Assembly (NCBI GenBank): GCA_028871055.1
Contig: JAGWON010000007.1
Span: 1-64,000 of the forward strand
Length of the DNA: 64,000 bases
Reading direction: 5' to 3'
Origin: Alphaproteobacteria bacterium
GTDB lineage: Bacteria > Pseudomonadota > Alphaproteobacteria > ATCC43930 > CGMCC-115725
The notes below the pieces were generated by a model. That model was not told the origin of the DNA. It saw nothing but the letters and a program-made list of their open reading frames with translations, and made no database searches. Positions 325 through 50,215 of this stretch are shown here, one piece after another. The translations under genes were made by a program, and so were the position numbers. Within the stretch, counting starts at the first letter, position 1; every line of letters begins with the position of its first letter.

Positions 325-2448
325 TCAGACTACGTCTTCGGCCTTCCCGATCCGGCAAAGCAGCGCCCGCAACTGATAGGTGCCCATTGCCGGATCGTAA
401 GGTGGCTGGTTATCCGTCAACAGGTTGACGTTACACCGCCAGACGCCGTATTCCGGCGGACCCTCTTCCGGGAACCACCATCCATGCTCGGCGGCGATGA
501 CCCGGGGATCGATCCCGCGCGTCAGCTTGGCCTTCTGACGCATTCTGCCACGTCGCGTCTCGATCCACATCCAGTCGCCGTCGGAAATCCCGAAACGCGC
601 CGCGGTTTCCGGGTGAATCTCGGACAATGGATCGGGCCGGGCTTTTCTAACGCGCGACAATTGGCGGTGCTCCGAGTTGAAGAAGAACGGAATGCGCGCG
701 CCTGTCGTCAGCACAAGCGGATAATCCTTGGCGACGTCTGGGCTGCTGATCGGACTCTCCGGCGGCTCCTCGTAATAGGGAAGCGGCGAGTAGCCGAGTT
801 CGGCGAACCGCGTGGCATAAAGCTCGATCTTGCCGGTGGGCGTCTTGAAGCCGCCCGGTTCGAACTTCCGGTAGCGGAACGGCAGCTTGACGAATCCCGT
901 TTCTTTCAGCTCGTCGAACGTGAGACCGACACCGCCCGCCCGAAGCTGTGCGTTGAGAACGTCGACGACCGGTTCGGTGCAGGACTCGAGCTTCATCCGC
1001 CGGGCAAGCGCGACGAAAATTTCCTCGTCCGACTTGCATTCTCCGATGCGCACCGCCCGCTGCTGGGCGAGCACGACATTCGCCGCGACCGTGGGAAGCC
1101 CGGCGACCTCGTCAAGCTCCGGCCACGAGGCGGCGGGCAGCACGATGTCCGCAAGCTCGGCCGTCGGCGTCATAAAGAGATCGGCGCACACCATGAAATC
1201 GAGCTTCAGGAGGGCATCCAAGACGCGCGACGAATGGGCGTAGGTCGTCAGCGTGTTGTTGCCGAAGACGAGGAACGCTTTGACGGGATAGGGCTTGCCC
1301 TCGGCGATCGCCTGGAGCAGCGTCGGAATGTGCGCCGCGGGAAGATCGGCGCCCGCGCCGCCCAAGAGCTTGAAGCGCTCGGCGCCGAGACGTTTCGCGT
1401 TCGTTTCGGGGCTGAGCTTCTCGATCAAGCTGGGGAATCGGCCGATGCCGTGCATGCCGAAAACCCAGCCACCGGGAATGTCGATGTTGCCGGTGAGCGC
1501 TGGCAGTATCGAAATGGCTCGGACAGTCTGGATGCAGTTGGGCGTATGCTCGATGGCGCAGCCCCATTCGAGCATCGCAGGCCGGGTCTCGGCGAAAAGG
1601 CGCGCAGCGGCGCGGATCTTCTCGGCCGCAACCCAGGTGATGGGCTCGGCCCACTCCGGCGTATGCGTCCTGACCCGCTCCGCCAGAGCCTCGAAGCCGT
1701 ATGTCCACGACTTGACGAACGGCTCGTCGTAGAGCTGCTCGCCGATGATGACATTGAGCATGGCGAGGGCCAGCGCATCGTCGGTGCCGGGACGGACCTG
1801 GAGCCACACATCGGCTCGTTTGGCGAGTTCCGTGGCGCGCGGATCGACGACGATGACCTTCGGGTGATGCCGCAGCCCGTCGCGCGCGTTGAAGCGGGTT
1901 TCGCCGTCCGGACCCGAATTGAGCGGATTGTGTCCCCAGTAGAGGATGCATTTCGGCGGAACATCTCCGGTGTAGTCGCAGACCGGAAAATCGCCGAACG
2001 TAAGGATCGTCGTATTGACGCGCGGATGGAAGCATTGGGCGAAACCGGGCTCGCACCAGTTGGGCGTGCCGAGTGCATTTCCGAACCGCGATACCCAGCG
2101 GATGTGGTGGCGGCCGGTGCCGGTCCCCAAGGCAATTGCCTCGGCGCCGAACTCGCGGCGGATCGCGAGCAGACGGTCGGCGATTTCATCGAGCGCCTCA
2201 TCCCAGGAGATGCGCTGCCATTGGCCGGATCCACGCTTGCCGATGCGGCGCCGGGGATAGGTCAGCCGGTCACGGTGGTAAACGAGATCGCGCGTCGACA
2301 CGCCGATCGGACACAAGCGACCGCGGTTCAGCGGCGATTCTGGATCGCCCTCGACCTTGACCAATTCGTCTTCTTGCACGTGCAGCAGAACGCCGCAGCC
2401 GCCGTGGCAGCTCCGGCAGACGCTCTTGAAAACCGTGGTGGTGGCGAT
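325..2448 (-). CDS. Molybdopterin (Mo/W) oxidoreductase of the acetylene-hydratase-like group
   Basis: This is a DMSO-reductase-superfamily catalytic subunit of about 707 residues. The N-terminus holds a [4Fe-4S] motif CRSCHGGC with the fourth Cys in GRLCPIG, followed by [11 protein letters not shown], the pterin-binding core and a C-terminal MopB domain. Long stretches, for example GKPYPVKAF, DLFMTPTAELAD and TPTGKIELY, resemble acetylene hydratase as I remember it, including a Cys at the expected metal-ligand position (PNWCEPGFAQC). However, the Asp beside the cluster of acetylene hydratase (CQSCD) is His here (CRSCH), so acetylene hydration should not be assumed. No ATG, GTG or TTG lies in frame upstream of the Cys motif. 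The start given is an ATC codon at 2448-2446, placed just after a strong Shine-Dalgarno (GGGAGGAC). The first standard codon (GTG, 2379) would remove three of the four cluster cysteines. The substrate is unknown; the neighbouring ubiD suggests aromatic chemistry. Confidence 0.75.
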   Translation of the reverse strand: MATTTVFKSVCRSCHGGCGVLLHVQEDELVKVEGDPESPLNRGRLCPIGVSTRDLVYHRDRLTYPRRRIGKRGSGQWQRISWDEALDEIADRLLAIRREFGAEAIALGTGTGRHHIRWVSRFGNALGTPNWCEPGFAQCFHPRVNTTILTFGDFPVCDYTGDVPPKCILYWGHNPLNSGPDGETRFNARDGLRHHPKVIVVDPRATELAKRADVWLQVRPGTDDALALAMLNVIIGEQLYDEPFVKSWTYGFEALAERVRTHTPEWAEPITWVAAEKIRAAARLFAETRPAMLEWGCAIEHTPNCIQTVRAISILPALTGNIDIPGGWVFGMHGIGRFPSLIEKLSPETNAKRLGAERFKLLGGAGADLPAAHIPTLLQAIAEGKPYPVKAFLVFGNNTLTTYAHSSRVLDALLKLDFMVCADLFMTPTAELADIVLPAASWPELDEVAGLPTVAANVVLAQQRAVRIGECKSDEEIFVALARRMKLESCTEPVVDVLNAQLRAGGVGLTFDELKETGFVKLPFRYRKFEPGGFKTPTGKIELYATRFAELGYSPLPYYEEPPESPISSPDVAKDYPLVLTTGARIPFFFNSEHRQLSRVRKARPDPLSEIHPETAARFGISDGDWMWIETRRGRMRQKAKLTRGIDPRVIAAEHGWWFPEEGPPEYGVWRCNVNLLTDNQPPYDPAMGTYQLRALLCRIGKAEDVV

Positions 2449-2517
2449 CGCTGTCCTCCCTTGCCCGATGCGACCGAGCCATCGGCGGTATAAAGGGCGA
2501 CGCTTCGGCCCCCTTCA

Positions 2518-2531
2518 TTGACATGGATCAA
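2518..2531. promoter_or_regulatory. FNR/FixK-type box upstream of the molybdoenzyme gene
   Basis: TTGACATGGATCAA matches the FNR consensus TTGAT-N4-ATCAA at nine of ten defined positions. Its centre lies about 77 bases upstream of the proposed start of the minus-strand molybdoenzyme gene, a normal place for anaerobic activation by an FNR or AadR-like protein. Confidence 0.6.
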
Positions 2532-2698
2532 GATTGTACCGTGATTCGCGGCACTGACCAGCGCTCTGCTTGCGCTCATAGCCGTCCCAGACGGGGGCGA
2601 TTGAATTCATCGTGACGTCGGAATGACCTGTTGAACCCGTCATGAGTCACACAGGGCATTCGTGAAATCGTGGATTCCCGCTTTTGGTGGGCGCTGCA

Positions 2699-2712
2699 TT
2701 GATCTATATCAA
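2699..2712. promoter_or_regulatory. Perfect FNR box upstream of the ubiD region
   Basis: TTGATCTATATCAA is a perfect match to the FNR consensus TTGAT-N4-ATCAA. It sits in the divergent region between the molybdoenzyme gene (minus) and the ubiD genes (plus), 27 bases before the ATG of the ubiD remnant. The spacing fits a class II site, centred near -41, for transcription towards ubiD. The rest of 2449-2698 shows no gene. Confidence 0.7.
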
Positions 2713-2738: not shown

Positions 2739-3058
2739 ATGTTTAGAATCCTAACAAAAAGAACAAATAACGTGGCACTTCAGGAGGAACGCGCTGACGT
2801 GAAATCGCCGGTCAGCGGGCGGATGAAAGTCGGGTTCAACCCGATGGCCGCCCGCCACGCCCCTTACGACGACCTGCGCGGCTGGATCGATGAGGCCCGG
2901 AAGCTCGGGAAAATTCGCGAGGTCAAGGGCCCGTCTTGGCGCGAAGACATCGGCATGGCCGATCTCCGTTTCGCCGAGTCGATTTTGATCTGACTCCGGT
3001 CGCGACGATTGCGCCGCGTATTTCGCTGGACCTCAGTCCCGACGACGTGAATTGGTAG
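2739..3058 (+). pseudogene. Truncated and frameshifted UbiD-family decarboxylase remnant
   Basis: An ATG at 2739 opens an 84-residue frame whose second half, YDDLRGWIDEARKLGKIREV followed by WREDIGM, looks like the N-terminus of a UbiD-family protein; it ends at a TGA (2991-2993). In another frame, 2993-3058 encodes PVATIAPRISLDLSPDDVNW before a TAG, which could be the C-terminus of the same kind of protein with the middle deleted. This reading of the tail is inference. A complete ubiD gene follows at once. The remnant keeps the FNR promoter position, so the downstream gene may now be read through it. Confidence 0.5.
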
Positions 3059-3116: not shown

Positions 3117-4760
3117 ATGCAGCAGATGGTTCAAGACAGCCAAACGAAATCCGGCCCGGCAAAAAGGGTGAGGACCGCACCCATACGGGACCTGCGCGAA
3201 TGGCTTTCGCGGGTCGAGCAAATCGGCGAACTGATCCGCGTCCGCGAGCCGGTCGATCCCGATCAAGAAATGAGCGCGATCTCCTACCTCGTCGCCAAGC
3301 AACAGCCGTCGCCGGCTGTGCTGTTCGAACGGGCGCGCGGTTTTGCCGGAAGCCGCATTCCTGCCAAGCTGTTATGGAACATCCTCGGTCCGAGCCTGAG
3401 GCGCATCGCCCTCACCCTCGAGGAGCCGCCGGACACACCGACGGTCGAATTGATCCGCCGGGTGAAAGACAAGCTCAAGCGGCGCGTGCCGCCGCACGAG
3501 GTGTCGGCGAACGAAGCCCCCGTCTATGAGAACACGATCACCGGACGGCAGATCGATCTCGAGGAATTGCCGATCCCGAAACATTGGCCGCTTGACGGCG
3601 GACGTTACGCGGGGACGGCGGACGCGGTGATCACGCGCGATCCCGACAGCGGCTATCTGAACGTCGGCACCTACCGGATGATGCTGCAGGGAAAGTCAAA
3701 AGTCGGTCTTTACCTCTCGCCGGGAAAGGACGCACGGCTCCACATCACGCGGGCCTGGCAGCAAGGAAAGTCGATCGAGGTCGCAGCCGCATGGGGGATC
3801 GATCCCTTGTTCATGCTGGTCGGCTCGCAGACCTTTCCTAAAAACATTTCGGAATATGAGTTTGCCGGCGGCATCAAGGGCGAGCCCATACCAGTCGTGC
3901 GCGGAAAGACGACCGGACTGCTGCTGCCCGCCAACGGGGAGCTCGTCATCGAAGGAATAATTCGGCCGAATTCGGTGAAGGCGGAAGGCCCGTTCGGCGA
4001 GTTTCCGGGTTATTACGGAAGACCGGAGGCGGGCTGCCCTCTCGTCGACGTGACGGCGGTGCACTACCGTTCCAGTCCTGTCCTGACCAATGCCTTGATG
4101 GCCGATTATCCCTCGTGCGAGCAAAGCGGTTTCTTCTCAGTCATCCGCTCCGCGAAAATCTGGGATGATCTCGACAAGCTCGGCATTCCGGGGATCCGGG
4201 GAGTCTATTCCCATCCGGCAGCGGCCGGAGGGTTTGGCATGACCGTCATCAGCATCGAGCAGCGCCACGCCGGCCACGCGGCGCAGGTGCTGGCGCTGGC
4301 GGCGCAGGTTCCCGGCGGGGCCTACTATACGAAGTGGATCATTGCTGTCGACGAGGACATCGACCCGACGGACATGAATCAGGTCATCTGGGCGATGGCG
4401 AGCCGGTGCAATCCGATCGATGACATCGATATCCTGAGAAACACCTGGAGCACCTGGCTCGATCCGACCCAGAATCCGCCCGAAAAGAGGCCCTACGGCT
4501 CAAAGGCCCTGATCAACGCGTGCAAGGAGCATCGCTATCTGCCGGTTTTCTCCAAACGAACCGCGCTGCGCGAGAGTGTCTATGAAAAAGTCGGCAGCCG
4601 CTGGAAAGAACTTGGATTTCCCGGGCAAATCCCGGCGATCAGCTCGTTCGAAGCCGAAAACAAAGTTACCTATCACGAGGTCGGAGACTTCGAACCTGGC
4701 TTGCAACCCGGCGAGGTGAAAGCCGTACGCGGGAAGAAAGCAAGGAAAACGTCGCGCTAG
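3117..4760 (+). CDS. UbiD-family (prenylated-FMN) decarboxylase/carboxylase
   Basis: This 547-residue protein has the usual length and layout of the UbiD family: an N-terminal DLREWLSRVEQIGELIRV segment, a central flavin-binding split-barrel domain, and a C-terminal domain. The region EGPFGEFPGYYG carries the two glutamates (E-x4-E) of the catalytic Glu-Arg-Glu set, and Arg in NVGTYRMM fits the catalytic arginine. Such enzymes use prenylated FMN made by UbiX and add or remove CO2 from aromatic or unsaturated acids. In anaerobic degraders relatives carboxylate phenylphosphate or benzene-type substrates or decarboxylate hydroxybenzoates. No ubiX or phenylphosphate-synthase genes are in the window, so the substrate and direction are open. 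I chose ATG 3117 (preceded by AAAGG) over a TTG at 3099. Expression is probably anaerobic through the FNR box at 2699. Confidence 0.85.
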   Translation: MQQMVQDSQTKSGPAKRVRTAPIRDLREWLSRVEQIGELIRVREPVDPDQEMSAISYLVAKQQPSPAVLFERARGFAGSRIPAKLLWNILGPSLRRIALTLEEPPDTPTVELIRRVKDKLKRRVPPHEVSANEAPVYENTITGRQIDLEELPIPKHWPLDGGRYAGTADAVITRDPDSGYLNVGTYRMMLQGKSKVGLYLSPGKDARLHITRAWQQGKSIEVAAAWGIDPLFMLVGSQTFPKNISEYEFAGGIKGEPIPVVRGKTTGLLLPANGELVIEGIIRPNSVKAEGPFGEFPGYYGRPEAGCPLVDVTAVHYRSSPVLTNALMADYPSCEQSGFFSVIRSAKIWDDLDKLGIPGIRGVYSHPAAAGGFGMTVISIEQRHAGHAAQVLALAAQVPGGAYYTKWIIAVDEDIDPTDMNQVIWAMASRCNPIDDIDILRNTWSTWLDPTQNPPEKRPYGSKALINACKEHRYLPVFSKRTALRESVYEKVGSRWKELGFPGQIPAISSFEAENKVTYHEVGDFEPGLQPGEVKAVRGKKARKTSR

Positions 4761-4786: not shown

Positions 4787-6385
4787 TTACCCTGCGCGCG
4801 AGGTCCTTTCCGTCTCCGATCGAGGCGCTGCCGCGAGCTCGCGCAGGCGGAAGCGTTGGATCTTGCCTGTGGCGGTGCGGGGAATCTGTGCAACGAACCG
4901 GATATCGCGCGGGCATTTGTAGATCGAGAGCTGCGATTTTATGTGCTCTTGAATGCGCACGGCGAGCTCGGGTCCGCCGGCGCGGGCGCCCGGCACGACG
5001 AACATCGCGAGCCGCACCAACCCGTCGGTGTTCTCGACGCCGACGACCGCAGCTTCGAGGACGCCAGGCATTGTCAGGACGCAATCTTCGATCTGCATCG
5101 GCGACACCCATTGTCCCGAGATTTTCAGCAGCTCGTCAGCCCGGCCATGATGGTACCACCAGCCTTCACTGTCGAAGCTGAAGACGTCCCCGGTGCAATA
5201 CCAGCCACCGATGAAGCTTGCCGCCGTCTTCGCCGCCTGCCGCCAATAGCCATTGCACAGCGATGGCATCCGCACCCACAGGGTGCCGGATTGGCCCGGC
5301 TCGGTAATACATTCCCCGCGTTCGTCCAGGAGACGCAGCTCGACTCTCGGTTGAGGCCGTCCGGTGGCTCCCGCGCGGTAAGCTTGAGGCGTATTGGCAA
5401 TGAAGAGAAATAAGGTCTCGGTTGCACCGATACCGTCGAGAATGGGCTTACCCGTGGCTTGGCGCCAGTGCTCGAACAACGCCGCAGGAAGCCTTTCGCC
5501 AGCGGAAACGAAGCATCGCACAGAGCGGAATGCTTCGTCGGTTGCATAGCCATCGCGCAGCAGATTGCGGTAGATGGTCGGCACGCTGAACATCACATCC
5601 GGGCGATGGCATCGGACGGTTTCGGCAATGGCGTCGGCGGCCGGCCAGCGATTATCGATGATCACGGTTGCGCCGACGCGCAGACCACCAAGAAGACAAT
5701 GTGTGAGGGCAAAGGAGAAGAACAGCTTTGACGACGAGAACAACCGATCCCCCGGTCGGACGCCGAGAATCTCGCCGAGATAGAGATTGCCCGGCAGCAC
5801 GTCGCGATGGCAATGGACAGCCGCCTTGGGTATTCCGGTCGTTCCCGACGTGTAGATCCAGAACGCCATGTCGTCCGCAGACATGGCAGCGCTCATCAGA
5901 CGGTCGGATTGTCCGTCGAGGAACGTGCGGAAGCTTACCGCTGGAGGAGAGGGATCCGCCTCGGCCCCACAGACGACCAGCACGGGCGGATGACGACCAC
6001 CTTCGGCCATTGCCTCGTCGAGGAGCCGGACGAACTCGGCGTCGATGAACATTGCACGGCAGGCGCTGTCCGCTATGGCGAAGCGAAGATCTTTGGCTGC
6101 CGAACGCGTGTTCAGCGCGACTGCTACGCCGCCGATCTTTATCGTAGCGAGAAAGCCGGCGACGAGCTCGGGCGTATCCTTGAGCAGAAACAGCACCCGC
6201 TCGCCGCGCACGACCCCATGCGCGGTAAGCGCATTGCCGAAGCGGTTCACCATCGAACCGAGCTCGGCATAACTCAAGCTCGCATCGCCGTAGATCAACG
6301 CCGGGCTCGATCCACGACCCATCGCGATCGCCGGTCCAAGCAACGCGTCGCACGCGTTCATCGGAGCCGCGGCAGCCGCCGTCAT
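4787..6385 (-). CDS. Benzoate-CoA ligase family acyl-CoA synthetase
   Basis: This 532-residue ANL-superfamily adenylating enzyme shows the P-loop-like motif YTSGTTGIPKAAVH near residue 180, GIGATET, the GWYCTGDVF aspartate motif, a KISGQWVSP hinge, and the catalytic lysine in RTATGKIQR near the C-terminus. HCHRDVLPG and KLFFSFALTH are typical of the benzoate-CoA ligase family. It would convert an aromatic or alicyclic carboxylic acid, CoA and ATP to the CoA thioester, AMP and pyrophosphate. It is the only candidate in the window for activating benzoate or 4-hydroxybenzoate. Its position next to the TetR gene and the beta-oxidation operon could instead point to a more specialised acid. It is convergent with ubiD. 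Its promoter lies in the region shared with the TetR gene. Confidence 0.85.
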   Translation of the reverse strand: MTAAAAAPMNACDALLGPAIAMGRGSSPALIYGDASLSYAELGSMVNRFGNALTAHGVVRGERVLFLLKDTPELVAGFLATIKIGGVAVALNTRSAAKDLRFAIADSACRAMFIDAEFVRLLDEAMAEGGRHPPVLVVCGAEADPSPPAVSFRTFLDGQSDRLMSAAMSADDMAFWIYTSGTTGIPKAAVHCHRDVLPGNLYLGEILGVRPGDRLFSSSKLFFSFALTHCLLGGLRVGATVIIDNRWPAADAIAETVRCHRPDVMFSVPTIYRNLLRDGYATDEAFRSVRCFVSAGERLPAALFEHWRQATGKPILDGIGATETLFLFIANTPQAYRAGATGRPQPRVELRLLDERGECITEPGQSGTLWVRMPSLCNGYWRQAAKTAASFIGGWYCTGDVFSFDSEGWWYHHGRADELLKISGQWVSPMQIEDCVLTMPGVLEAAVVGVENTDGLVRLAMFVVPGARAGGPELAVRIQEHIKSQLSIYKCPRDIRFVAQIPRTATGKIQRFRLRELAAAPRSETERTSRAG

Positions 6386-7575: not shown

Positions 7576-7616
7576 GTTTGCGGCCTTACGCGGCTGAACG
7601 CGAGAGACGGGCACCT

Positions 7617-8423
7617 ATGATCGGCAGTCAACAGGTTGGACGGGCTTTTGTCGTCACGTTGTCGCAGCCTCCGGTCAACGCGATCAACGACGCGTGGATC
7701 GACCGCTTCGACGGCGCTCTCGACGCAATGGAGCGGCGCGGCAGTACCACCGTCCTGCACATTCGCAGCGACCAGCGCGTGTTCTCCGCCGGTGCGGACC
7801 TGAAGACCATGCGATCGTGCTTCACCACGCCGGATGGTCCAGACAAGATGGTGGCTATGGTGCGTCGCCTGCAGGCGCTCTACGCTCGCATCGAGCGCCT
7901 TCCGCAGGTGACGGTGACCGAGATTGGTGGGTCGGCCCTGGGCGGCGGATTCGAGCTGGCGCTCGCCTGCGATCTTCGTGTCGCGTCGCTCGACGCTCGC
8001 CTCGGCCTCCCTGAAGCACGGCTGGGCTTGATCCCCGGCGCGGGCGGGACACAACGTCTCGCTCGGCTCTGCGGAAGCGGCGTAGCGCGGCGCATGATCC
8101 TTTCGGCCGAGCTTGTCGACGGCGAAGCCGCCCGTTCACTTGGTATCGTCCAGTGGGCGGTGGCGTTGCAGGAACTGTCGGAATTCACGACGAAGCTGGT
8201 CGCATCCGTCGCGGCGCTGCCGCCGGCCGCTCTTGCCGCCTGCAAGCGCTGTATCTCCCAGGCGAGCGAGCCCGGTCCGGCGGGTTTCCTTGCCGAAGTG
8301 CAGGAGACGCACCAGCTGCTCGATGACCCCGAGACGCGTGCGCTCGTAACCGCTTTTCTCGAGCGGCGGCCGATGCCGCGCACCAGCGATTTACAGCCCG
8401 AACGGAAGCGAGTGGCACCATGA
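7617..8423 (+). CDS. Enoyl-CoA hydratase/isomerase (crotonase) family protein
   Basis: This 268-residue crotonase-fold protein has SAGADLKTM at the CoA-binding/oxyanion-hole loop and GGSALGGGFELALACD at the second oxyanion loop. It carries a glutamate in LPEARLGLIPGAGG, as in true hydratases. It should add water to, or isomerise, an unsaturated acyl-CoA. It is the first gene of an operon whose next genes overlap by 4 bases. ATG 7617 was chosen over an upstream TTG (7578) because the latter starts inside the operator region. Together with the SDR and acyl-CoA dehydrogenase it fits beta-oxidation of ring-cleavage or alicyclic CoA esters. Exact substrate unknown. Confidence 0.85.
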   Translation: MIGSQQVGRAFVVTLSQPPVNAINDAWIDRFDGALDAMERRGSTTVLHIRSDQRVFSAGADLKTMRSCFTTPDGPDKMVAMVRRLQALYARIERLPQVTVTEIGGSALGGGFELALACDLRVASLDARLGLPEARLGLIPGAGGTQRLARLCGSGVARRMILSAELVDGEAARSLGIVQWAVALQELSEFTTKLVASVAALPPAALAACKRCISQASEPGPAGFLAEVQETHQLLDDPETRALVTAFLERRPMPRTSDLQPERKRVAP

Positions 8424-9166
8424 AGCTTACGGGAAAAACGGCCGTCGTCACGGGCGCCGCCTCGGGAATCGGCCTCGCCATCGCCGAGGCCGTGGCCGAG
8501 GCAGGCGCACACGTGATTCTGGGCGATATCGCCGCGGAAAAGGCAGAGTCCGAAGCCCATCGGCTCAGGCAGCGGAACCTCGCGGCCGACGCGGTTACTC
8601 TCGACGTGACGGACGACCGCTCCATCTCCGCCTTTACTGCCGCGGCGCTGGCGTTTGACAACCGCGTCGATGTCGTCGTCAATGCCGCTGGCTGGGGAAA
8701 GGTGCAACCGTTCGTCGAGAATACGCCCGAATTCTGGGAGCGCGTCGTCGCGCTCAATCTCATGGGGCCGATCAAGCTCACTCGCGCTTTCCTGCCCGGC
8801 ATGATGGAGCGGCGCTCCGGCAAGGTCGTCAACGTGTCGAGCGACGCCGGGCGCGTCGGGAGTCTCGGCGAGACTGTCTATTCCGGCGCCAAGGCCGGTG
8901 CCATCGGCTTCACCAAGGGTCTCGCCCGCGAGATGGCGCGCTATGGGGTCAGCATCAACTGCGTCTGCCCCGGGCCGACCGATACGCCGCTGCTGGCAGC
9001 GGTGCCGGAGAAGTTCCGCGAGGCGTTTCTGCGCGCAATCCCGATGCGGCGATTCGGCAAGCCCGCCGATGTCGCCGGCGCCGTCGTCTTCTTCGCGAGT
9101 CCACGCGCCGATTACATCACCGGCCAGGTGTTGAGCGTGAGCGGCGGCTTGACGATGGCCGGATGA
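8420..9166 (+). CDS. Short-chain dehydrogenase (3-hydroxyacyl-CoA dehydrogenase type)
   Basis: This classical SDR of 248 residues has the NAD-binding motif [18 protein letters not shown] in [10 protein letters not shown], the serine of VNVSSDAG, the catalytic YSGAK, and a C-terminal [14 protein letters not shown]. The sequence is reminiscent of BadH, the 2-hydroxycyclohexanecarboxyl-CoA dehydrogenase of Rhodopseudomonas palustris, but I cannot separate that from other 3-hydroxyacyl-CoA dehydrogenases by eye. Its start overlaps the preceding crotonase stop (ATGA), which shows translational coupling. It most likely oxidises the alcohol formed by one of the two flanking hydratases with NAD+. Confidence 0.82.
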
Positions 9167-10041
9167 ACCCGTTTGCCCCAATGGTCGAAATGGTCGAGGA
9201 GCTCAAAGTCATGAAAGAACTACGCGCTGCGGATTTCAAACCCGCCCATTTCGCCTGGTCGGTCACCGGTAAGGTGGCGACGATCCGTCTCAACCGTCCG
9301 GAGCGGAAGAACCCGCTGACGTTTCAGTCGTATGGCGAGCTGCGCGATCTTTTCCGCGATCTCGCCTATGCACGCGACGTCAAGGCGGTGGTGGTGACCG
9401 GCGAAGGCGGCAATTTTTGCTCGGGCGGTGACGTTCATGAAATCATCGGTCCGCTCGTACGCATGCAGGAAACAGGCGACATGGGCGGTCTGCTCGCCTT
9501 CACGCGCATGACCGGCGATCTCGTCAAGGCGATGCGCGCCTGTCCACAGCCGATCGTCGCCGCGGTTGACGGCATCTGCGCCGGCGCCGGAGCGATTCTC
9601 GCCATGGCTGCCGATCTGCGCTATGGCACCGCGCGCAGCAAGGTCGCCTTCCTCTTCGTGCGCGTCGGGCTCGCCGGCGCGGATATGGGCGCCTGCAACA
9701 TCCTGCCGCGAATCATCGGTGTCGGCCGCGCGGCGGAATTGCTCTATACCGGACGCGCGATCGACGGCAATGAGGCGGAGCGCTGGGGCTTCTATAATAA
9801 GCTTTGTGCGCCGGAGACTGTCCTTGCGGATGCCCAGGCGCTCGCGGCCACGCTCGCGGCCGGCCCGACTTTCGCCCATGCGATGACCAAGAAGTGCATC
9901 CATCAGGAATGGGACATGTCGATCGACGCCGCGATCGAGGCCGAAGCACAGGCGCAGGCGATCTGCATGCAGACGCGGGATTATGGTCGTGCCTATCGCG
10001 CATTCGTCGCCAAGGAGAAACCGGCGTTCGAAGGTGATTGA
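9163..10041 (+). CDS. Second enoyl-CoA hydratase/isomerase family protein
   Basis: This 292-residue crotonase-family protein has an N-terminal extension of about 35 residues, the core [13 protein letters not shown], the oxyanion loop [11 protein letters not shown], and [17 protein letters not shown]. The second catalytic region reads [19 protein letters not shown]. This lacks the usual glutamate seen in the first crotonase of the operon, so it may be an isomerase or have another specificity. The start overlaps the SDR stop. A later ATG (9211) is an alternative. Its role is probably in the same CoA-ester oxidation pathway. Confidence 0.8.
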
Positions 10042-10043
10042 TA

Positions 10044-11246
10044 TTGGACCGTAGTTTCCTCGACTGGCCATTTTTCGAGGCCGAGCATCGCGCCGCTGCG
10101 GCGGCGTTCGAGCGCTGGGCGGCGGAGGCGCTGCCAAACGTGCTGGGCACAGACGAGGAAGCGGAGCGCGACGTGCACGGGACTGTACGCCGGCTAGTCG
10201 CCGCGCTCGGGCGCGCCGGGCTGCTGCGCCATGCGGCTCCAGGCGCCGAAGGTCCGAATGGCGGCCACGTGCTGCGCACGTTGTGTCTTGCCCGCGAAAC
10301 CTTTGCCCGCAGCTCCAGTCTCGCCGATTTTGCCTTCGCCATGCAGGGACTCGGCAGCGCGCCGATCAGCCTCTACGGCACCGACGCCCAACGTCGGCGA
10401 TACCTGCCGGGAGTGTGCGCTGGCAAAACCATCGCCGCCTTCGCTCTCTCCGAAGCCGAGGCCGGCTCCGATGTCGCTGCCATGACGACAAGCGCCGTCA
10501 AATGTGCCGGTGGCTACCGCCTCGACGGCGGCAAAACATGGATCTCGAATGCCGGACTCGCCGATTTCTACGTCGTCTTCGCGCGTACCGGCGAGGGCGC
10601 CCGCAGCAAGGGGATCTCGGCCTTCATCGTCGATAGCGGCACGCCTGGCTTCACCATTGGCAAGAACATCGACATTATCGCGCCGCATCCCCTCGGCAGC
10701 CTCGGTTTCGAGAACTGCGTCGTCGGCGAAAATCAACTCCTCGGCAAGCCCGGCGAGGGATTCAAGATTGCCATGGCGACGCTCGACATCTTTCGCTCGA
10801 CGGTGGGCGCGGCGGCGTTGGGCTTCGCGCGCCGGGCCTTCGACGAAGCCGTCCAACGCAGCGTGAAGCGCCAACTCTTCGGCAACGCCATGGCGTCGTT
10901 GCAAATGATCCAGGAGAAGATCGCCGACATGGCGCTTGCGATCGACGCGGCTGCGCTGCTGATCTACCGCGCCGCCTGGACGAAAGACACGCGCGGCGGC
11001 CGCATCAGCCGTGAAGCGAGCATGGCCAAGCTCTATGCCACCGAGGAGGCGCAGCGCGTCATCGATCAGGCAGTGCAGATCTTCGGTGGCCTTGGCGTCG
11101 TGCGCGGCGTCGCGGTCGAGCGACTCTACCGGGAGATTCGCGCTTTGCGGATTTACGAGGGCGCGAGCGAGGTCCAGAAGCTGGTTATTGCCGGTGAAGT
11201 GCTTCAGGCGGCGCGCTCCGATCCGTCGCACGAACGCCAGCCATGA
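10044..11246 (+). CDS. Acyl-CoA dehydrogenase
   Basis: This FAD-dependent acyl-CoA dehydrogenase of about 400 residues has the [14 protein letters not shown] motif, [17 protein letters not shown], the middle beta domain, [21 protein letters not shown], and the C-terminal [22 protein letters not shown] and [14 protein letters not shown]. The glutamate in YEGASE is the usual catalytic-base position. The start must be TTG (10044, with AAGG upstream, or 10038) because no ATG lies near. It is the last gene of the operon and would feed electrons from an acyl-CoA to an electron-transfer flavoprotein not seen here. Confidence 0.88.
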
Positions 11247-18702: not shown

Positions 18703-18716
18703 CTGATCTGGATCAA
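18703..18716. promoter_or_regulatory. FNR-like box upstream of korA
   Basis: CTGATCTGGATCAA differs from TTGAT-N4-ATCAA at one position. Its centre is about 60 bases before the korA start on the minus strand, and it is also within 130 bases of the divergent had-bcr operon start, so it could serve either operon. Confidence 0.55.
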
Positions 18717-34501: not shown

Positions 34502-34515
34502 TTGATCTGGATCAA
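34502..34515. promoter_or_regulatory. Perfect FNR box upstream of the pad operon
   Basis: TTGATCTGGATCAA is a perfect FNR consensus site centred about 84 bases before the thioesterase start on the minus strand. It is one of two in the 302-base divergent region 34425-34726, which otherwise holds no gene. Confidence 0.65.
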
Positions 34516-34643: not shown

Positions 34644-34657
34644 TTGATCTAGATCAA
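34644..34657. promoter_or_regulatory. Perfect FNR box upstream of the aromatic ABC importer operon
   Basis: TTGATCTAGATCAA is a fully palindromic perfect FNR site centred about 76 bases before the ATG of the binding-protein gene at 34727. Each of the two divergent operons therefore has its own box. Confidence 0.65.
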
Positions 34658-42433: not shown

Positions 42434-45400
42434 ATGAAGATCGCAACGCGCAAATTCTCGATCATCCTGTTCGGCTTGTCGCTGCTCCTCAAGTGGAAGG
42501 CCATCCGCCACCCGGTCTTTCGCGCGCGTCTCAAGGAGCGCAATTTCGTAGCGCAAATTCTCGCACGCGATGAAGAGATTGGGCGTTGGTTCGCATTCCG
42601 CGACGGTAAGCTCGTAACGGGTGTCGGCTACCACGCGAATCCCGATATCAAGCTGCTGTTCAAGAACGCCGCGATCGGCGCCAAGCTTTTGACACCGCCG
42701 ATCAACTGGCTCAATCAGATCAACGCGCAGAAGGACTTCACGCTCGGCGTCGACGGACCCGAGGATCTGACCAACTGGTTCGCGCAGACGGTGATGATGG
42801 CGCAAACCGTCGGCTGGAAATTCGGCACGAAAATGCCGGACGGCATCACGCGATATTGCAACATGACGAATGGCGGACCGGTTTTTATCGACGTCAAGGA
42901 CGGCAAGATCGTCCGAATGACGCCGATCGAATTCGACGCTAAAGACCCGCAGCCCTGGACCATCAAGGCGCGCGGAATGAGCTTTACGCCGCCGCGCAAG
43001 ACGACGTTGGCGCCGCACGGGCAGAACGCCAAATCGATCATCTATTCGCCCGATCGCCTGCTTCATCCCATGAAACGGGTCGACTTCGACTCGAACGGCG
43101 ACCGCAATCCGCAGAATCGCGGCAAGTCGGGTTACGTCCGGATTTCGTGGGACGAGGCGCTCGATCTCGTTGCCGACGAGATCAAGCGCTGCAAACGCGA
43201 TCACGGTCCGGGCGCGATCGCAACCTCGCACGGCTCACATCACACCTGGGGCAATATCGGTTACTACCTTTCAGCGCTCTACCGCTTCGCCAATGCGATC
43301 GGCATGACCCGCGTCCATCACAATCCCGACTCGTGGGAAGGCTGGTACTGGGGCGCGGTCCATCATTGGGGCTACACGCTGCGCGTCGGCCAAAGCGAGA
43401 CCTACGGCACGGTCGAGGACTGTCTCCAAAACTGCGACATGATCGTGTTCTGGGCCGCGGATCCGGAGAGCACCAGCGGCTCCTACGGCGCACAGGAAGG
43501 CACGGTGCGCCGGCAGTGGCTCAAGAATCCGAAGCTCGGCATCAAGGTCGTCCACGTCGATCCCTACTACAACGCCTCGGCCCAGTTCCTGCCCGGCAAG
43601 TGGTTCGCGCCGCGGCCGACGACCTCGGTCGCGATGGCCATGGCCATCGCCTATGTCTGGATTAAGGAAGGCCTCTACGACAAAGGCTACGTCGCCATCC
43701 ATACGGTCGGCTTCGACACGTGGAAGGCGTATCTGCTGGGCGACGAAGACGGCATCCCCAAGACGCCGGAATGGCAGGAAGCCGAAACCGGCGTTCCCGC
43801 CAAGGATGTTCGCGCGCTCGCTCGCGAGTGGGGCAAGAAGCGCGTCTATCTCGCGCCCGGCGGCTGGGGCAACGGCCACGGCGGCGCCTGCCGCAACCAG
43901 ACGGGCATCCAATGGGCCCGCGTCATGGTGTGCCTCGCTTCGATGCAAGGATTGGGCAAGCCCGGGATCAACCTGGGTCATCTGCAATGGGGCAGTCCGC
44001 TCGACTTCAATTTCTATTTCCCTGGTTACGCCGACGGCGGCATGTCGGGCGATCTCGAGAACACGTCGATGCCGGTCGAGCTCTATCAGCGCATGCCGCA
44101 GCTGCCAACCATGAACTCGAGTTTCCAGCGCATTCCGCGCATCTGGATGCCCGAGGCAATCGCCGACGGGAAGGCAGAAGGCTGGCCGTGGGTCGGTAAG
44201 TCGATCGAGCACCAGTTCGCCAAATTCAGCTACCCGGCACCGGGCCATTCGCCGGTCAAGATGCTCTACAAGTACGGCGGCTCAATGCTGTCGACGATGA
44301 ACAACACCAACCGCCACGTGCGCATGTACCAGTCGCCGAATCTCGAATTCGTCGTCAACCAGTCGATCTGGTTCGAGGGTGAGGCGAAATTCGCCGATCT
44401 GATTTTGCCAGCCTGCACCAATTTCGAGCGTGTCGACATCTGCGAGTGGGCCGGTCTCGGCGGCTATGGCCACCATGGCCAGCAGCAGCTCAATCACCGC
44501 GTCATCGTCTTCCAGGCGCCGGCGATCGCGCCGCTCGGTGAGTCCAAATCCGATTACTGGATTTTCAACGAGATCTGCAAGCGTCTCGGTCTCGCCAACT
44601 ATTTCTCCGAGGGCGTCAACGAGATCGACTGGGTCAAGCGGCATTTCGATGCATCGGACCTGCCGCAGGTGATTTCCTGGAAGAGGTTCATGAAACGCGG
44701 CTATTACGTCGTGCCGGCGGAAAAGGAGCATCTGCGTGCGCCGGTATCATTCCGCTGGTTCTGGGAAAATCGCAAAAAGGACGTTCCCGAGGCGCAACCG
44801 CTGCCGTCCGATTATCATGGCGAGTACCTCAAGGGGCTGCAGACCCAATCGGGCAAGCTCGAGTTCGAATGCAACAGCTTGAAGCGCTTCAAGGATCCGG
44901 AGCGGCCGCCGATCGTCAAATACGAGCCGTCGTGGGAGGGGCCGCATTCGGGCGCGCTCTACCGCAAATACCCGCTACAGCTCCTGACGCCGCACTCGAA
45001 GTACAGCTACCACACCCAGGGCGACGGCAAGGACAGCTTCCTGCTCAATATCGAGGATCACCGCGTCAATGTCGGTGGCTGGTACTATCTAGTGCTGCGG
45101 CTCAACGAGGAGGACGCGAAGGAGCGCGGCATCAGGAAGCACGATCTGGTCAAAATCTACAACGACCGCGGTGCGGTTATTTGTGCCGCCTTGCCGACCC
45201 AACGCCTGCCGCGCGGCGTCTGTCACGGCTACGAATCGTCGGCGATCTACGATCCGATGGGCGAGCCCGGCAAATCGGTGGACCGCGGCGGTTGCCTCAA
45301 CCTGCTGACGCCGCATCGCACGCAGACTCGCAACACGCATTCGCTCGCCGGCTCGCAAGCGCTCGTCCAAATCGAACCGTGGGATGGCAAGACCGAGCAC

Positions 45401-45472
45401 ATTTCGGAGGTTTTCGCGGAGACAAAGCTGCCGTCCGAATTGCGCATCGGTGACGTCGTGCCCGCGCAGTAG
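42434..45472 (+). CDS. Large Mo subunit of a pyrogallol-phloroglucinol transhydroxylase-like enzyme, with N-terminal extension
   Basis: This protein has 1012 residues. From about residue 140 on it closely follows the pyrogallol transhydroxylase large chain as I remember it: [64 protein letters not shown] (Asp-Ser, the Mo-ligand Ser in the model enzyme), [10 protein letters not shown] and [15 protein letters not shown]. As in that enzyme, no N-terminal Cys cluster motif is present. The family transfers hydroxyl groups between phenols (pyrogallol to phloroglucinol) or hydroxylates resorcinol-type rings. The first ~135 residues are extra: a hydrophobic segment [10 protein letters not shown], then a domain including [22 protein letters not shown] and [17 protein letters not shown], which recalls an SCP2-like lipid-binding fold (inference). 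The start has AGGAGG. The actual substrate is undetermined. Confidence 0.85.
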
Positions 45473-45491
45473 AGCCGGCCGGAGGAAGCAT

Positions 45492-46331
45492 ATGAAGAAG
45501 TGGAACATGATCATCGACGTGGCGGAGTGTACCAACTGCAACCTGTGCACCCTCGCGGCAATGGACGAGTACGTCGGCAATGAATTCCCGGGTTATGCGG
45601 CGCCGATGCCGAAGCACGGTCATCAGTGGATCAAAATCCTGCAAAAGGAGCGGGGACAAATGCCGATGATCGACATCGCTTATGTCCCGACCATGTGCAA
45701 TCACTGCGACGACGCGCCGTGCATCAAGGCGGCGACGAACGGCGCAATCGTGAAGCGCGACGACGGCATCGTTCTGATCGATCCGGTCAAGGCCAGAGGC
45801 CAGAAGCAGTTGGTCGACGCCTGTCCCTACGGCCATATCTGGTGGAACGAGGAGTTGGGCGTACCGCAGGCATGGCCGTTCGACGCCCATCTCATCGATC
45901 AGGGTTGGGACAAGACGCGCGGAGCGCTGTCGTGCCCGACCGGCGCGATGAAGACGGTGAAGCTCGACGACGATGAAATGGCACGACTAGCGCGCGAAGA
46001 AAATCTCGACGTGATCAAGCCCGAGATCAACGCACGGCCGCGGGTCTACTACAAGAACCTGTGGCGCTACACCACGTGTTTCCTCGGCGGATCGCTGTCC
46101 GTCGAACGCGGCGGAATTATCGATTGCGTCGAAGGTGCGCGCGTCAGGCTGCTCAAGGACGGTGCTACCGTCGCCGAAATCCTCAGCGACAACTACGGCG
46201 ATTTCAAGTTCGACAAGCTCGAGCCGGGGTCGGGGCGGTATTCAATTGAGATCAGTGCCGCTGGCCGTGCACCCAAAACGGTTGCGGTCGATCTCCACGA
46301 CAGCCTCAATCTTGGCGAAATACGCTTATAG
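45492..46331 (+). CDS. Fe-S small subunit of the transhydroxylase-like enzyme
   Basis: This 279-residue protein has an N-terminal ferredoxin-like part and a C-terminal beta-sandwich (about residues 200-279, GARVRLLKDGATVAEILSDN, DFKFDKLEPG), as in the pyrogallol transhydroxylase small chain (PRVYYKNL is shared). Cysteines are at 13, 16, 19, 69, 72, 77, 111, 148, 196 and 212. The first eight fit two [4Fe-4S] clusters (13/16/19/148 and 69/72/77/111). The model enzyme carries three clusters. Here the fourth Cys of motif I is Ala and the Cys-x2-Cys of motif III is absent (AWPFDAHLI). It starts 19 bases after the large subunit with GGAGGAAG. Confidence 0.85.
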   Translation: MKKWNMIIDVAECTNCNLCTLAAMDEYVGNEFPGYAAPMPKHGHQWIKILQKERGQMPMIDIAYVPTMCNHCDDAPCIKAATNGAIVKRDDGIVLIDPVKARGQKQLVDACPYGHIWWNEELGVPQAWPFDAHLIDQGWDKTRGALSCPTGAMKTVKLDDDEMARLAREENLDVIKPEINARPRVYYKNLWRYTTCFLGGSLSVERGGIIDCVEGARVRLLKDGATVAEILSDNYGDFKFDKLEPGSGRYSIEISAAGRAPKTVAVDLHDSLNLGEIRL

Positions 46332-47063: not shown

Positions 47064-48215
47064 ATGGCAGAGCAACGTCTCGGCTTGATCATGAACGGTG
47101 TCACCGGCCGGATGGGAACGAACCAACATCTCGTCCGCTCGATCGTCGCCATTCGCGCGCAGGGCGGCGTGACGCTGGCGAACGGCGATCGGGTGATGCC
47201 CGATCCGGTCCTGGTCGGCCGCAACGCGGCAAAGCTCGAGGAGCTGGCGGAGGCGCACGGCATCGAGCGCTGGACCACGGATCTCGATGCCGCGCTCGAC
47301 AATCCCGACGATACGGTTTTCTTCGACGCCGCCACGACCCAGTTGCGCGCCAAGCTGCTGCGCAAGGCGATTGCCGCGGGCAAGCACGTCTATTGCGAAA
47401 AACCGGTGGCCGAGAACCTTGCGGATGCGCTCGATCTCGCACGCCGCGCGAAGAAGGCCGGTATCAAGCACGGCGTGGTGCAGGACAAGCTGTTCCTGCC
47501 GGGCCTGCGCAAGCTGCGTGCGCTGATCGATTCCGGCTTCTTCGGCCGTATCCTGTCGGTGCGCGGCGAGTTCGGCTATTGGGTCTTCGAGGGCGATTGG
47601 CAGCCGATCAACCGCCCGTCGTGGAATTACCGCAAGAAGGACGGCGGCGGCATCGTCCTCGACATGCTCTGCCACTGGCGCTATGTGCTCGACAATTTGT
47701 TCGGCGAGGTGCGCAGCGTCTCGTGCCTGGGCGCGATCCACGTTCCGCGGCGTTGGGACGAGAACGGCAAGGCGTACAAGGCGGACGCCGATGACGCCGC
47801 CTATGCGACGTTCGAGCTGGCGGACGGTGTCATTGCGCAAATCAACAGCTCGTGGTGCACGCGGCCGCGCCGCGACGACCTCGTGACCTTTCACGTCGAC
47901 GGCACGCTGGGTTCGGCGGTTGCCGGCCTGCACAAATGCTGGAGCCAGGCGCGCGTCAACACGCCGCGCCCGGTATGGAATCCCGACGTGCCGCAGCCGA
48001 TCGATTTGTTCAAGACCTGGGCCGAGGTGCCGGATGCGGCCGTCTACGACAACGGCTTCAAGATCGAATGGGAGATGTTCATCCGCCACGTCGTCGAGGA
48101 TGCGCCGTTCAAATGGACGCTGCTCGAAGGCGCCAAGGGCGTGCAGCTCGCCGAAGCCGGGCTCAAGAGCTGGAAGGAGCGGCGCTGGGTCGACGTCACG
48201 CCGCTCAAGGTCTGA
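47064..48215 (+). CDS. Gfo/Idh/MocA-family oxidoreductase
   Basis: This 383-residue NAD(P)-dependent oxidoreductase begins with [18 protein letters not shown] (a dinucleotide-binding loop of the G-x-x-G-R-M-G type), then [19 protein letters not shown] with the EKP motif, [21 protein letters not shown], and a C-terminal alpha/beta domain. It forms a coupled trio with the DUF993 and TIM-barrel genes. This trio points to sugar, inositol or polyol catabolism, but the substrate is not visible from sequence. Confidence 0.82.
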
Positions 48216-48218
48216 GCC

Positions 48219-49382
48219 ATGGCAACATTGCGTCTGCCGGTTGCGGGCCGCCGCCTTGCGCCGTACACCATGCGGCCGGCGGCCGCGTTTCCGCCTGCCG
48301 ACGGACCGTTCAACCGCATCGCCTATGCGGCGCCGCACGTCGTCGGCGATCCGCTCGCCGATTGCAATCCGTGGCTCGATGCGGCGGTCGATTGGGACCG
48401 CACAATCGCCTATCGCCGCTATCTGTGGTCGCTCGGTCTCGGCGTCGCCGAGGCAATGGATACCGCGCAACGCGGCATGGGGTTGGATTGGCCGCGCTCG
48501 CTCGAGCTGATCCGCCGCAGTCTCGATGCGGCGCGTGACGTTCCGGGCGCGCTGCTCGCTTCAGGCGTCGGCACCGACCATCTCGATGCTGGCGCGCCGG
48601 CGACCATCGACGACGTGATCCGCGCCTACGAGGAGCAATGCGCCGCAGTCGAGAAGCTCGGTGGCCGCATCGTGCTGATGGCGAGCCGGGCGCTGACGCG
48701 GGCCGCGCGCTCACCCGACGATTATGCCAAGGTCTATGGCCGCATCCTGCACCAGCTCAAGGACAAGGCGATCATCCACTGGCTCGGCGAGATGTTCGAT
48801 CCCGCGCTCGCCGGCTACTGGGGCCATGCCGATCACGTGCGGGCGATGGACGTGGCCGTCGATATCATCGCCGCCAATGCCTCCAAGATCGACGGCGTCA
48901 AGATCTCGCTGCTCGACAAGAACAAGGAGATCGCGATACGCCGGCGCTTGCCGCCCGGGGTGCGCATGTACACCGGCGACGATTTCAACTACGCCGAGCT
49001 GATCATCGGTGACAACAGCGGCCATTCGGATGCGCTGCTCGGTATCTTCGACGCGATCGCGCCGGCCGCCGCCGCCGCGCTGGGCGCGCTCGCGCGCGGC
49101 GACGCGAAGTCGTTCGACGCGATCCTCGCGCCGACGGTGCCGCTCTCGCGCCACATCTTCCAGGCGCCGACCCGGTTCTATAAGACCGGTGTCGTGTTCA
49201 TGGCCTATCTAAACGGCCACCAGGACCATTTCGTCATGGTCGGCGGTCAGGAGAGCGCGCGCTCGACCCTGCATCTTGCCGACCTGTTCCGCCTCGCGGA
49301 CGCGGCAGGCCTGTTGCGCGATCCCGATCGTGCGGCGGTGCGCATGCGCGCGGCGCTGGCGGTTCGCGGCATTGAGGCGTGA
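48219..49382 (+). CDS. DUF993-family (dihydrodipicolinate-synthase-like) protein
   Basis: This 387-residue protein fits the DUF993/dihydrodipicolinate-synthase-like TIM-barrel group: TIAYRRYLWSLGLGVAEAMDTAQRGMGLDWPRSLELI, GGRIVLMASRALTRAA, DGVKISLLDKNKEI (candidate Schiff-base Lys) and GDDFNYAELIIGD. It likely performs an aldolase or dehydratase step on a sugar acid between the neighbouring oxidoreductase and isomerase (inference). It starts three bases after the oxidoreductase gene. Confidence 0.75.
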   Translation: MATLRLPVAGRRLAPYTMRPAAAFPPADGPFNRIAYAAPHVVGDPLADCNPWLDAAVDWDRTIAYRRYLWSLGLGVAEAMDTAQRGMGLDWPRSLELIRRSLDAARDVPGALLASGVGTDHLDAGAPATIDDVIRAYEEQCAAVEKLGGRIVLMASRALTRAARSPDDYAKVYGRILHQLKDKAIIHWLGEMFDPALAGYWGHADHVRAMDVAVDIIAANASKIDGVKISLLDKNKEIAIRRRLPPGVRMYTGDDFNYAELIIGDNSGHSDALLGIFDAIAPAAAAALGALARGDAKSFDAILAPTVPLSRHIFQAPTRFYKTGVVFMAYLNGHQDHFVMVGGQESARSTLHLADLFRLADAAGLLRDPDRAAVRMRAALAVRGIEA

Positions 49383-49384
49383 CG

Positions 49385-50215
49385 ATGCGCGATCTGAGCC
49401 GGGATCGCCGTTGGATCGCGATCAACACCGCGACGGTCAAGGCGTGGTCGCTCGAGCAGGCGATCGACGGCTGCGCCCGCGCCGGCATCACGGCGATCGC
49501 GCCATGGCGCGACATCCTCCAGGCGTGCGGCGTCGCGCGCGCGGCTCAGCTCCTGCGAACGCACGACATGACCGTCACCGCGCTGTGCCGCGGCGGCATG
49601 TTCCCTGCCGCCGACGAAGCCGGGCGCCGTGCGGCGCTCGACGACAACCGGCGCGCGGTCGACGAGGCGGCCGGCATCGGCGCAGCATGCCTCGTCCTCG
49701 TGGTCGGCGGCTTGCCGGCGGGCTCTAAGGACATCGCTGGCGCGCGCCGCCAGGTGCGCGATGGGCTGGCGGCGCTGCTGCCCCATGCGCGCAAGGCTGG
49801 CGTGAAGCTCGCGATCGAGCCGCTCCATCCGATGTATGCCGCCGATCGCGCCTGCGTGAACACGCTCGCCCAGGCGAACGATCTGTGCGACGAGCTGGGT
49901 GACGGCCTCGGCGTCGCGGTCGATGTTTATCACGTCTGGTGGGACCCCGCGCTGGCGCGCGAGATCGCGCGCGCCGGATCGCGCATCATCAGCTATCATG
50001 TCTGCGACTGGCTGGTACCGACGACCGACCTGCTGCTCGATCGCGGCATGATGGGGGACGGCGTCATCGACCTGCGCGGCATCCGAGCCATGGTCGAGGC
50101 TGCCGGCTTCGCCGGTCACTGCGACGTCGAGATCTTCTCGGCGCGCGATTGGTGGAAACGTGACCCCAATGAGGTGCTCGGCGTTTGTCTCGAGCGCTAC
50201 CGCACGGTGGTTTAG
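49385..50215 (+). CDS. Sugar phosphate isomerase/epimerase (xylose-isomerase-like TIM barrel)
   Basis: This 276-residue TIM-barrel protein has NTATVKAWSLEQAIDGCARAGITAIAPWRD, KAGVKLAIEPLHPMYAADRACVNTL (metal-ligand Glu), GVAVDVYHVWWDP (Asp/His) and GHCDVEIFSARDWW. It is typical of the AP-endonuclease-family-2 sugar isomerases. ATG 49385 is used; a GTG at 49379 overlaps the previous stop. Its location at the end of the trio suggests one catabolic route for a sugar or polyol. Confidence 0.8.
   Translation: MRDLSRDRRWIAINTATVKAWSLEQAIDGCARAGITAIAPWRDILQACGVARAAQLLRTHDMTVTALCRGGMFPAADEAGRRAALDDNRRAVDEAAGIGAACLVLVVGGLPAGSKDIAGARRQVRDGLAALLPHARKAGVKLAIEPLHPMYAADRACVNTLAQANDLCDELGDGLGVAVDVYHVWWDPALAREIARAGSRIISYHVCDWLVPTTDLLLDRGMMGDGVIDLRGIRAMVEAAGFAGHCDVEIFSARDWWKRDPNEVLGVCLERYRTVV

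Follow-up and report, generated by a model that had tools for sequence, protein, structure and literature searches.

An acetylene hydratase-like molybdenum/tungsten enzyme beside an apparently rearranged UbiD locus: predicted FNR-type boxes and a probable SCP2-fused transhydroxylase partner

Introduction

Two FNR-type boxes lie in a divergent gap between a gene for an acetylene hydratase-like (AHY-like) bis-pterin enzyme and a gene of the UbiD family. Do they control a natural gene pair, and if not, what does the AHY-like enzyme work with? A sequence-only reading of this locus had proposed an anaerobically induced pair, consisting of a metal-pterin enzyme of uncertain chemistry and a prenyl-FMN (de)carboxylase, possibly working together in a single unrecognised pathway that handles a hydrocarbon or a phenol. 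Regulators of the AcpR/AadR type, members of the FNR family, are known to control anaerobic aromatic operons, including the bzd PN promoter (PMC6678401). We followed up the proposal in the window, that is, the whole stretch of 64,000 nucleotides analysed here, and in homologous loci of other genomes.

Table 1. Positions of the window features discussed in the text
Feature	Position	Strand	Basis
Liv-type ABC substrate-binding protein, tail only, at the contig edge	1..149	+	40 aa match the LivBP cluster at 65-78%
AHY-like gene, bis-pterin Mo/W oxidoreductase family	325..2454	-	709-aa open frame; Molybdop_Fe4S4, Molybdopterin, Molydop_binding (Pfam)
Predicted FNR-type box, AHY-like side	2518..2531		TTGACATGGATCAA; boxes recur before homologues
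Predicted FNR-type box, attributed to a lost UbiD gene (c11)	2699..2712		Exact match; same box before intact c11 in G001
Stub, probable decayed 5' end of UbiD c11	2772..2993	+	74 codons; homology stops near 2955
Intact UbiD-family gene c0, putative prenyl-FMN (de)carboxylase	3117..4760	+	UbiD_N, UbiD, UbiD_C; TIGR00148
Aryl-CoA ligase, benzoate-CoA ligase family (HbdA-like)	4787..6385	-	Passes the TIGR02262 cut-off but not that of the HbdA model
ECH1-SDR-ECH2-ACD block	7578..11246	+	Accompanies THL or AHY in relatives
THL, transhydroxylase-like large subunit with N-terminal SCP2-fold domain	42434..45472	+	PDB 4v4c, E 5e-286; SCP2 fold; co-occurrence
THS, Fe-S small subunit	45492..46331	+	Fer4_11; beside THL in relatives

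Results

The box on the AHY-like side, TTGACATGGATCAA, has one mismatch to TTGATN4ATCAA, while the second, TTGATCTATATCAA, fits this pattern exactly (Table 1). In dinucleotide shuffles of the 317-bp gap (2455-2771), at least two sites with at most one mismatch were obtained with a probability of about 1e-4, and the probability of an exact site by shuffling was about 7e-4. The whole window contains eight sites with at most one mismatch against 0.69 expected, a number that was reached in none of 100 shuffles. Intergenic DNA accounts for 6% of the window and holds all three exact sites and five of the eight sites overall. These five (2518, 2699, 18703, 34502 and 34644) all fall into gaps between divergent genes, with anaerobic aromatic genes alongside: the exact boxes at 34502-34515 and 34644-34657 share the gap between pad-like genes on the minus strand and a Liv-type transporter operon on the plus strand, and a weaker box at 18703 lies between the divergent kor and had genes.

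Moreover, in 11 of 77 loci with AHY-like homologues the 420 bp preceding the first Fe-S cysteine contain a box that deviates from the pattern by no more than one base, where about 0.35 would be expected from the whole-window rate and about 2 from the gap's own composition. Two regulators of the Crp/Fnr type are encoded in the genome; both have the conserved E..SR recognition helix, and one has an N-terminal cysteine cluster. A promoter palindrome, its conservation in relatives and an encoded regulator are thus found together, as would be anticipated for an FNR-type regulon site. Because the boxes of the window go beyond chance, regulators are present in the genome and boxes also precede homologues, the AHY-like gene is likely to be under FNR-type control. 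Both boxes are real and probably functional, and anaerobic control of the region is plausible.

The arrangement resembles that of AcpR/AadR-controlled operons in having FNR-type boxes before anaerobic aromatic genes. If an FNR-activated transcription start of the AHY-like gene lay 41.5 bp from the centre of the box at 2518, it would be expected around 2483, which would give the transcript a leader of about 35 nt before an ATC at 2448; activation at -41.5 from the box at 2699 would put the predicted start about 25 bp before the first frame on that side.

This first frame is not the intact UbiD gene, termed c0 here, but a short stub. It had been claimed that the boxes flank the divergent start region of the AHY-like and UbiD genes; two boxes beyond chance are indeed there, but the one at 2699 stands before the stub, and c0 starts only at 3117. 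The stub protein matches the N-terminus of a second UbiD protein, c11, from a genome of the same genus (G001) with 66% over 62 aa. At the DNA level, homology to G001 extends from the box through the promoter into c11 and ends near position 2955, so that the box and about 250 bp behind it have their counterpart in the promoter and the 5' part of a UbiD gene that is intact in G001. There, c11 is preceded by the same box sequence, at a distance of 73 bp from its ATG; in the alignment, this ATG has become GTG in the window, and the stub contains two compensating frameshifts. A Sterolibacterium MAG (L153) has c11, X, Y and c0 in this order on one strand, and a single deletion in such a cluster would yield the order box, c11 stub and c0. 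The UbiD paralogues of this multi-UbiD cluster have other genes between or beside them, for an EutA-like and a cupin protein in L153 (10892-13592) and for a CoA-transferase fusion in L154 (10483-12867).

The c0 protein contains all three UbiD domains, scores above the TIGR00148 cut-off and has conserved NVGTYR and EGPFGE motifs, whose Arg and Glu residues we take to be catalytic as in Fdc1. In its domains and catalytic motif, c0 agrees with a prenyl-FMN (de)carboxylase of the UbiD family. While c0 shares its domains and the family model with UbiD-family decarboxylases such as VdcC and the beta subunit of phenylphosphate carboxylase, it stays below every substrate-specific cut-off, and neither VdcB/D nor phenylphosphate synthase genes were seen alongside. 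Where we examined the DNA upstream of c0 relatives, no FNR box was found within 350 bp. This speaks against an FNR box of c0's own, and hence the box ahead of it looks like a captured promoter. Judged by these comparisons, the neighbourhood of the AHY-like gene and c0 is best explained by a local rearrangement.

A scan of the collection yielded 79 AHY-like loci. The protein most often encoded next to the AHY-like gene is about 1,010 residues long, shares 60-84% identity with THL of the window and is accompanied by an Fe-S small subunit. THL and/or its small subunit THS were found in 28 of 76 loci, many of which are cut by contig ends. The genes occur in the orders THL-AHY-THS (L031) and THL-THS-AHY (L019 and L024). 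In L012, AHY and THL diverge across a single exact TTGATCTATATCAA box, and an exact FNR box also stands ahead of the operon in L031. In 49 genomes chosen by possession of AHY, THL is present in 46, compared with 8 of 385 background genomes of the class, counted without correction for shared ancestry. According to these counts AHY is found almost only together with THL; THL also occurs alone. With the threshold used, the AHY gene is present in this genome only among 386 of the class and absent from 60 related genomes.

In the window, THL is located about 40 kb away from the AHY-like gene, and no FNR box was found within 400 bp upstream of it. Counterparts of the ECH1, SDR and ECH2 genes of the block in Table 1 lie beside THL or AHY in L010, L012, L158 and L160, and Liv-type binding proteins are encoded beside AHY in many relatives. 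Since AHY, THL/THS, the ECH-SDR-ECH-ACD block and a Liv-type tail are all on the contig, the window appears to hold the whole module in dispersed form. Directly downstream of THL/THS (47064-50215) follow GFO/IDH/MocA, DUF993 and xylose-isomerase-like genes, and then a cobalamin synthesis operon. At some loci with no neighbouring THL (L009, 10163-11182, and also L049, L061 and L070), an amidohydrolase-2 family gene, a possible decarboxylase, comes directly after the AHY-like gene.

THL aligns with its residues 138-987 to the whole 875-aa chain of pyrogallol-phloroglucinol transhydroxylase (AhtL/PgtL, 4v4c) and contains the Pfam AhtL-like domain. Both the large-subunit homology and the adjoining gene for an Fe-S small subunit agree with an enzyme of this type. 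In contrast to the solved transhydroxylase, THL has an additional N-terminal domain of about 130 aa (42434-42830). A PDB sequence search with this part gave no match, and fold comparison alone identified it: the first 142 residues, predicted with a mean pLDDT of 86, match SCP2-fold proteins, UbiJ first, with a Foldseek probability of 1.00 and a TM of about 0.6-0.7. The extension was kept in all 15 homologues aligned. Plasmid-borne homologues from Ensifer, Burkholderia and Salipiger (L169-L171) match from residue 23-30 onward, and their neighbours include, in varied combinations, VOC-family, fumarylacetoacetate-hydrolase and TetR proteins, acyl-CoA synthetases and FadL-like or OmpW outer-membrane proteins. 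The SCP2 domain and these plasmid neighbours naturally suggest a hydrophobic phenol, which is our best guess for the substrate of the AHY-like enzyme and SCP2-transhydroxylase as a unit. Our literature search found no description of an SCP2-transhydroxylase fusion, and the fusion might perhaps be new.

Among the other explanations, one takes the AHY-like enzyme and THL/THS as the hydroxylase and hydroxyhydroquinone dehydrogenase of an oxidative pathway via hydroxyhydroquinone, such as the one for resorcinol or 3,5-dihydroxybenzoate. The 3,5-dihydroxybenzoate operon of Thauera aromatica holds a homologue, the loss of which impairs growth (PMC7028382), and THL was placed with the PgtL/RhL-type enzymes in a comparison that did not include authentic sequences of the resorcinol hydroxylase RhL. 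However, the E1-type dehydrogenase that lies beside AHY in L022 has just 36-39% homologues in this genome, and we set aside a route via E1-type genes; what the window contains is instead a complete benzoyl-CoA route. On a comparison that left out the authentic Thauera/Azoarcus sequences, we regard the hydroxyhydroquinone pathway as an unlikely role for these genes.

The start of the AHY-like gene raises the question whether the region is decaying. The stretch from the preceding stop codon to the Fe-S motif contains no ATG, GTG or TTG in frame. In most homologues, translation begins at an ATG that precedes the first cysteine by 63-72 nt; in the window, an ATG at 2482 precedes it by 64 nt and is 1 nt out of frame. 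An ATC in frame is found at 2448, 30 nt before the cysteine, with GGGAGG six bases ahead. This ATC is the best placed start, or there may be a 1-nt frame error relative to the ATG at 2482; non-AUG initiation, an assembly frame error and early decay are all possible. The missing start and the truncated stub with its frameshifts would suit a region in which the AHY-like gene and the UbiD promoter are remnants and the boxes control little. Against this, the AHY-like frame is open over its 709 codons and its product is up to 81% identical to intact homologues, a GGGAGG precedes the ATC, the homologue in L012 likewise has its usual start out of frame, and c0 is intact. Decay of the region thus seems quite improbable to us.

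We give even less credit to the view that the AHY-like enzyme and c0 are a co-regulated divergent pair in one hydrocarbon or phenol pathway. There are boxes on both sides of the gap, and both genes are part of an anaerobic aromatic island. Moreover, orthologs of c0 were found in 21 of the 49 AHY genomes compared with 5 of 385 background genomes, again uncorrected for shared ancestry. Yet no c0 ortholog is adjacent to the AHY-like gene in any of the 79 loci, three of which have a nearby, distant UbiD (about 30% identity); in addition, the c0 orthologs examined have no FNR box, and the box ahead of c0 appears to belong to another UbiD gene. Synteny therefore rejects a conserved pair, and of the co-occurrence sought by the sequence-only reading only the enrichment at the genome level is left. 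This enrichment counts against the explanation that we favour below and makes a pathway shared with c0 conceivable.

Among proteins of known structure, the AHY-like protein is most similar to acetylene hydratase (Ahy) of Pelobacter acetylenicus (2e7z, E 1.6e-117, 36% identity), with which it has the bis-pterin fold and the Fe4S4 domain in common. In our tree the proteobacterial clade holds together, the deep forks are open and acetylene hydratase sits on a long branch. Active-site residues are numbered, and their roles given, as in acetylene hydratase. The metal ligand Cys141 and the four Fe-S cysteines are kept, but His, Ile, Phe and Pro replace Asp13, Lys48, Ile142 and Trp179. Across the family, Asp13 is replaced by His in 67 of 69 rows, Lys48 by Ile or Leu in most, Ile142 by Phe and Trp179 by Pro. 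Although it is the best match of solved structure and retains the metal ligand and cluster cysteines, a true acetylene hydratase is highly improbable and we rejected acetylene hydration as its predicted function, as these four residues are replaced throughout the family and the gene surroundings point to aromatic catabolism.

Lysine is the usual residue at position 48, between the Fe-S cluster and the pterin. Its replacement by Ile in most of the family argues against simple electron transfer and hence against a reductive reaction. His-13 and Pro-179 are also present in Gordonibacter and Adlercreutzia proteins, which are 41-43% identical (versus 36% for acetylene hydratase), a figure that refers to Eggerthellaceae proteins not themselves shown to be characterised dehydroxylases. 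With the catechol dehydroxylases of the Gordonibacter type (PMC7028382, PMC11887054) the AHY-like protein shares these two residues and the size of a cytosolic catalytic subunit. The bis-MGD catechol dehydroxylase has a partner Fe-S electron-transfer protein (PMC11887054), whereas no such gene adjoins the AHY-like gene of the window, which has Ile at position 48 instead of Arg. An Fe-S protein (cluster 28) adjoins the AHY-like gene in a few distant loci, and THS and AHY are interleaved in L031. Given the residue replacements and the resemblance to the Gordonibacter and Adlercreutzia proteins, the AHY-like enzyme most likely acts on an aromatic hydroxyl or in a hydration step other than acetylene hydration. 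The absence of the acetylene hydratase residues bears out the uncertain chemistry that had been ascribed to the metal-pterin enzyme.

Discussion

Overall, we favour, with a probability of roughly 0.6, the explanation that the two boxes mark two back-to-back promoters, one of the AHY-like gene and one of the lost UbiD gene c11, that c0 lies behind the captured promoter, and that the partner of AHY is the SCP2-transhydroxylase. The box at 2518 would serve the promoter of the AHY-like gene. The box at 2699 would have belonged to the second UbiD gene, whose body has since been deleted, leaving c0 downstream of a captured promoter and perhaps reached by read-through. The AHY-like protein would be a cytosolic bis-pterin molybdenum/tungsten enzyme of the acetylene hydratase/catechol dehydroxylase branch, and its conserved partner the two-subunit SCP2 transhydroxylase-like enzyme (42434-46331) rather than UbiD.

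In this module, the SCP2 domain may present a hydrophobic phenolic substrate to the transhydroxylase core, which would add or move a ring hydroxyl without O2. The AHY-like enzyme would then act on the polyhydroxylated ring, by dehydroxylation or, less likely, by hydration, and the CoA ligase/ECH/SDR/ACD block would lead into central anaerobic aromatic catabolism. The boxes suggest that FNR-type regulators switch the module on when oxygen is lacking.

More speculatively, and we consider it rather doubtful, the genes might form an O2-independent two-enzyme molybdenum/tungsten system for hydrophobic phenols, for example phenolic lipids of the alkylresorcinol type. THL/THS would hydroxylate a membrane-soluble phenol, and the AHY-like enzyme would dehydroxylate the product or hydrate it in a reaction other than that of acetylene. 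Other bacteria would use the same SCP2-transhydroxylase next to extradiol-type VOC proteins, fumarylacetoacetate hydrolases and outer-membrane proteins of the FadL/OmpW type.

If the favoured explanation is true, the pairing of AHY and UbiD would be corrected to a local rearrangement with a captured promoter, and a whole proteobacterial protein clade, for which acetylene hydratase is the closest relative of solved structure, would instead work alongside an SCP2-fused transhydroxylase in the anaerobic breakdown of phenols. It would also provide a concrete gene set for one of the few known O2-free ways to put hydroxyls on aromatic rings or to move them.
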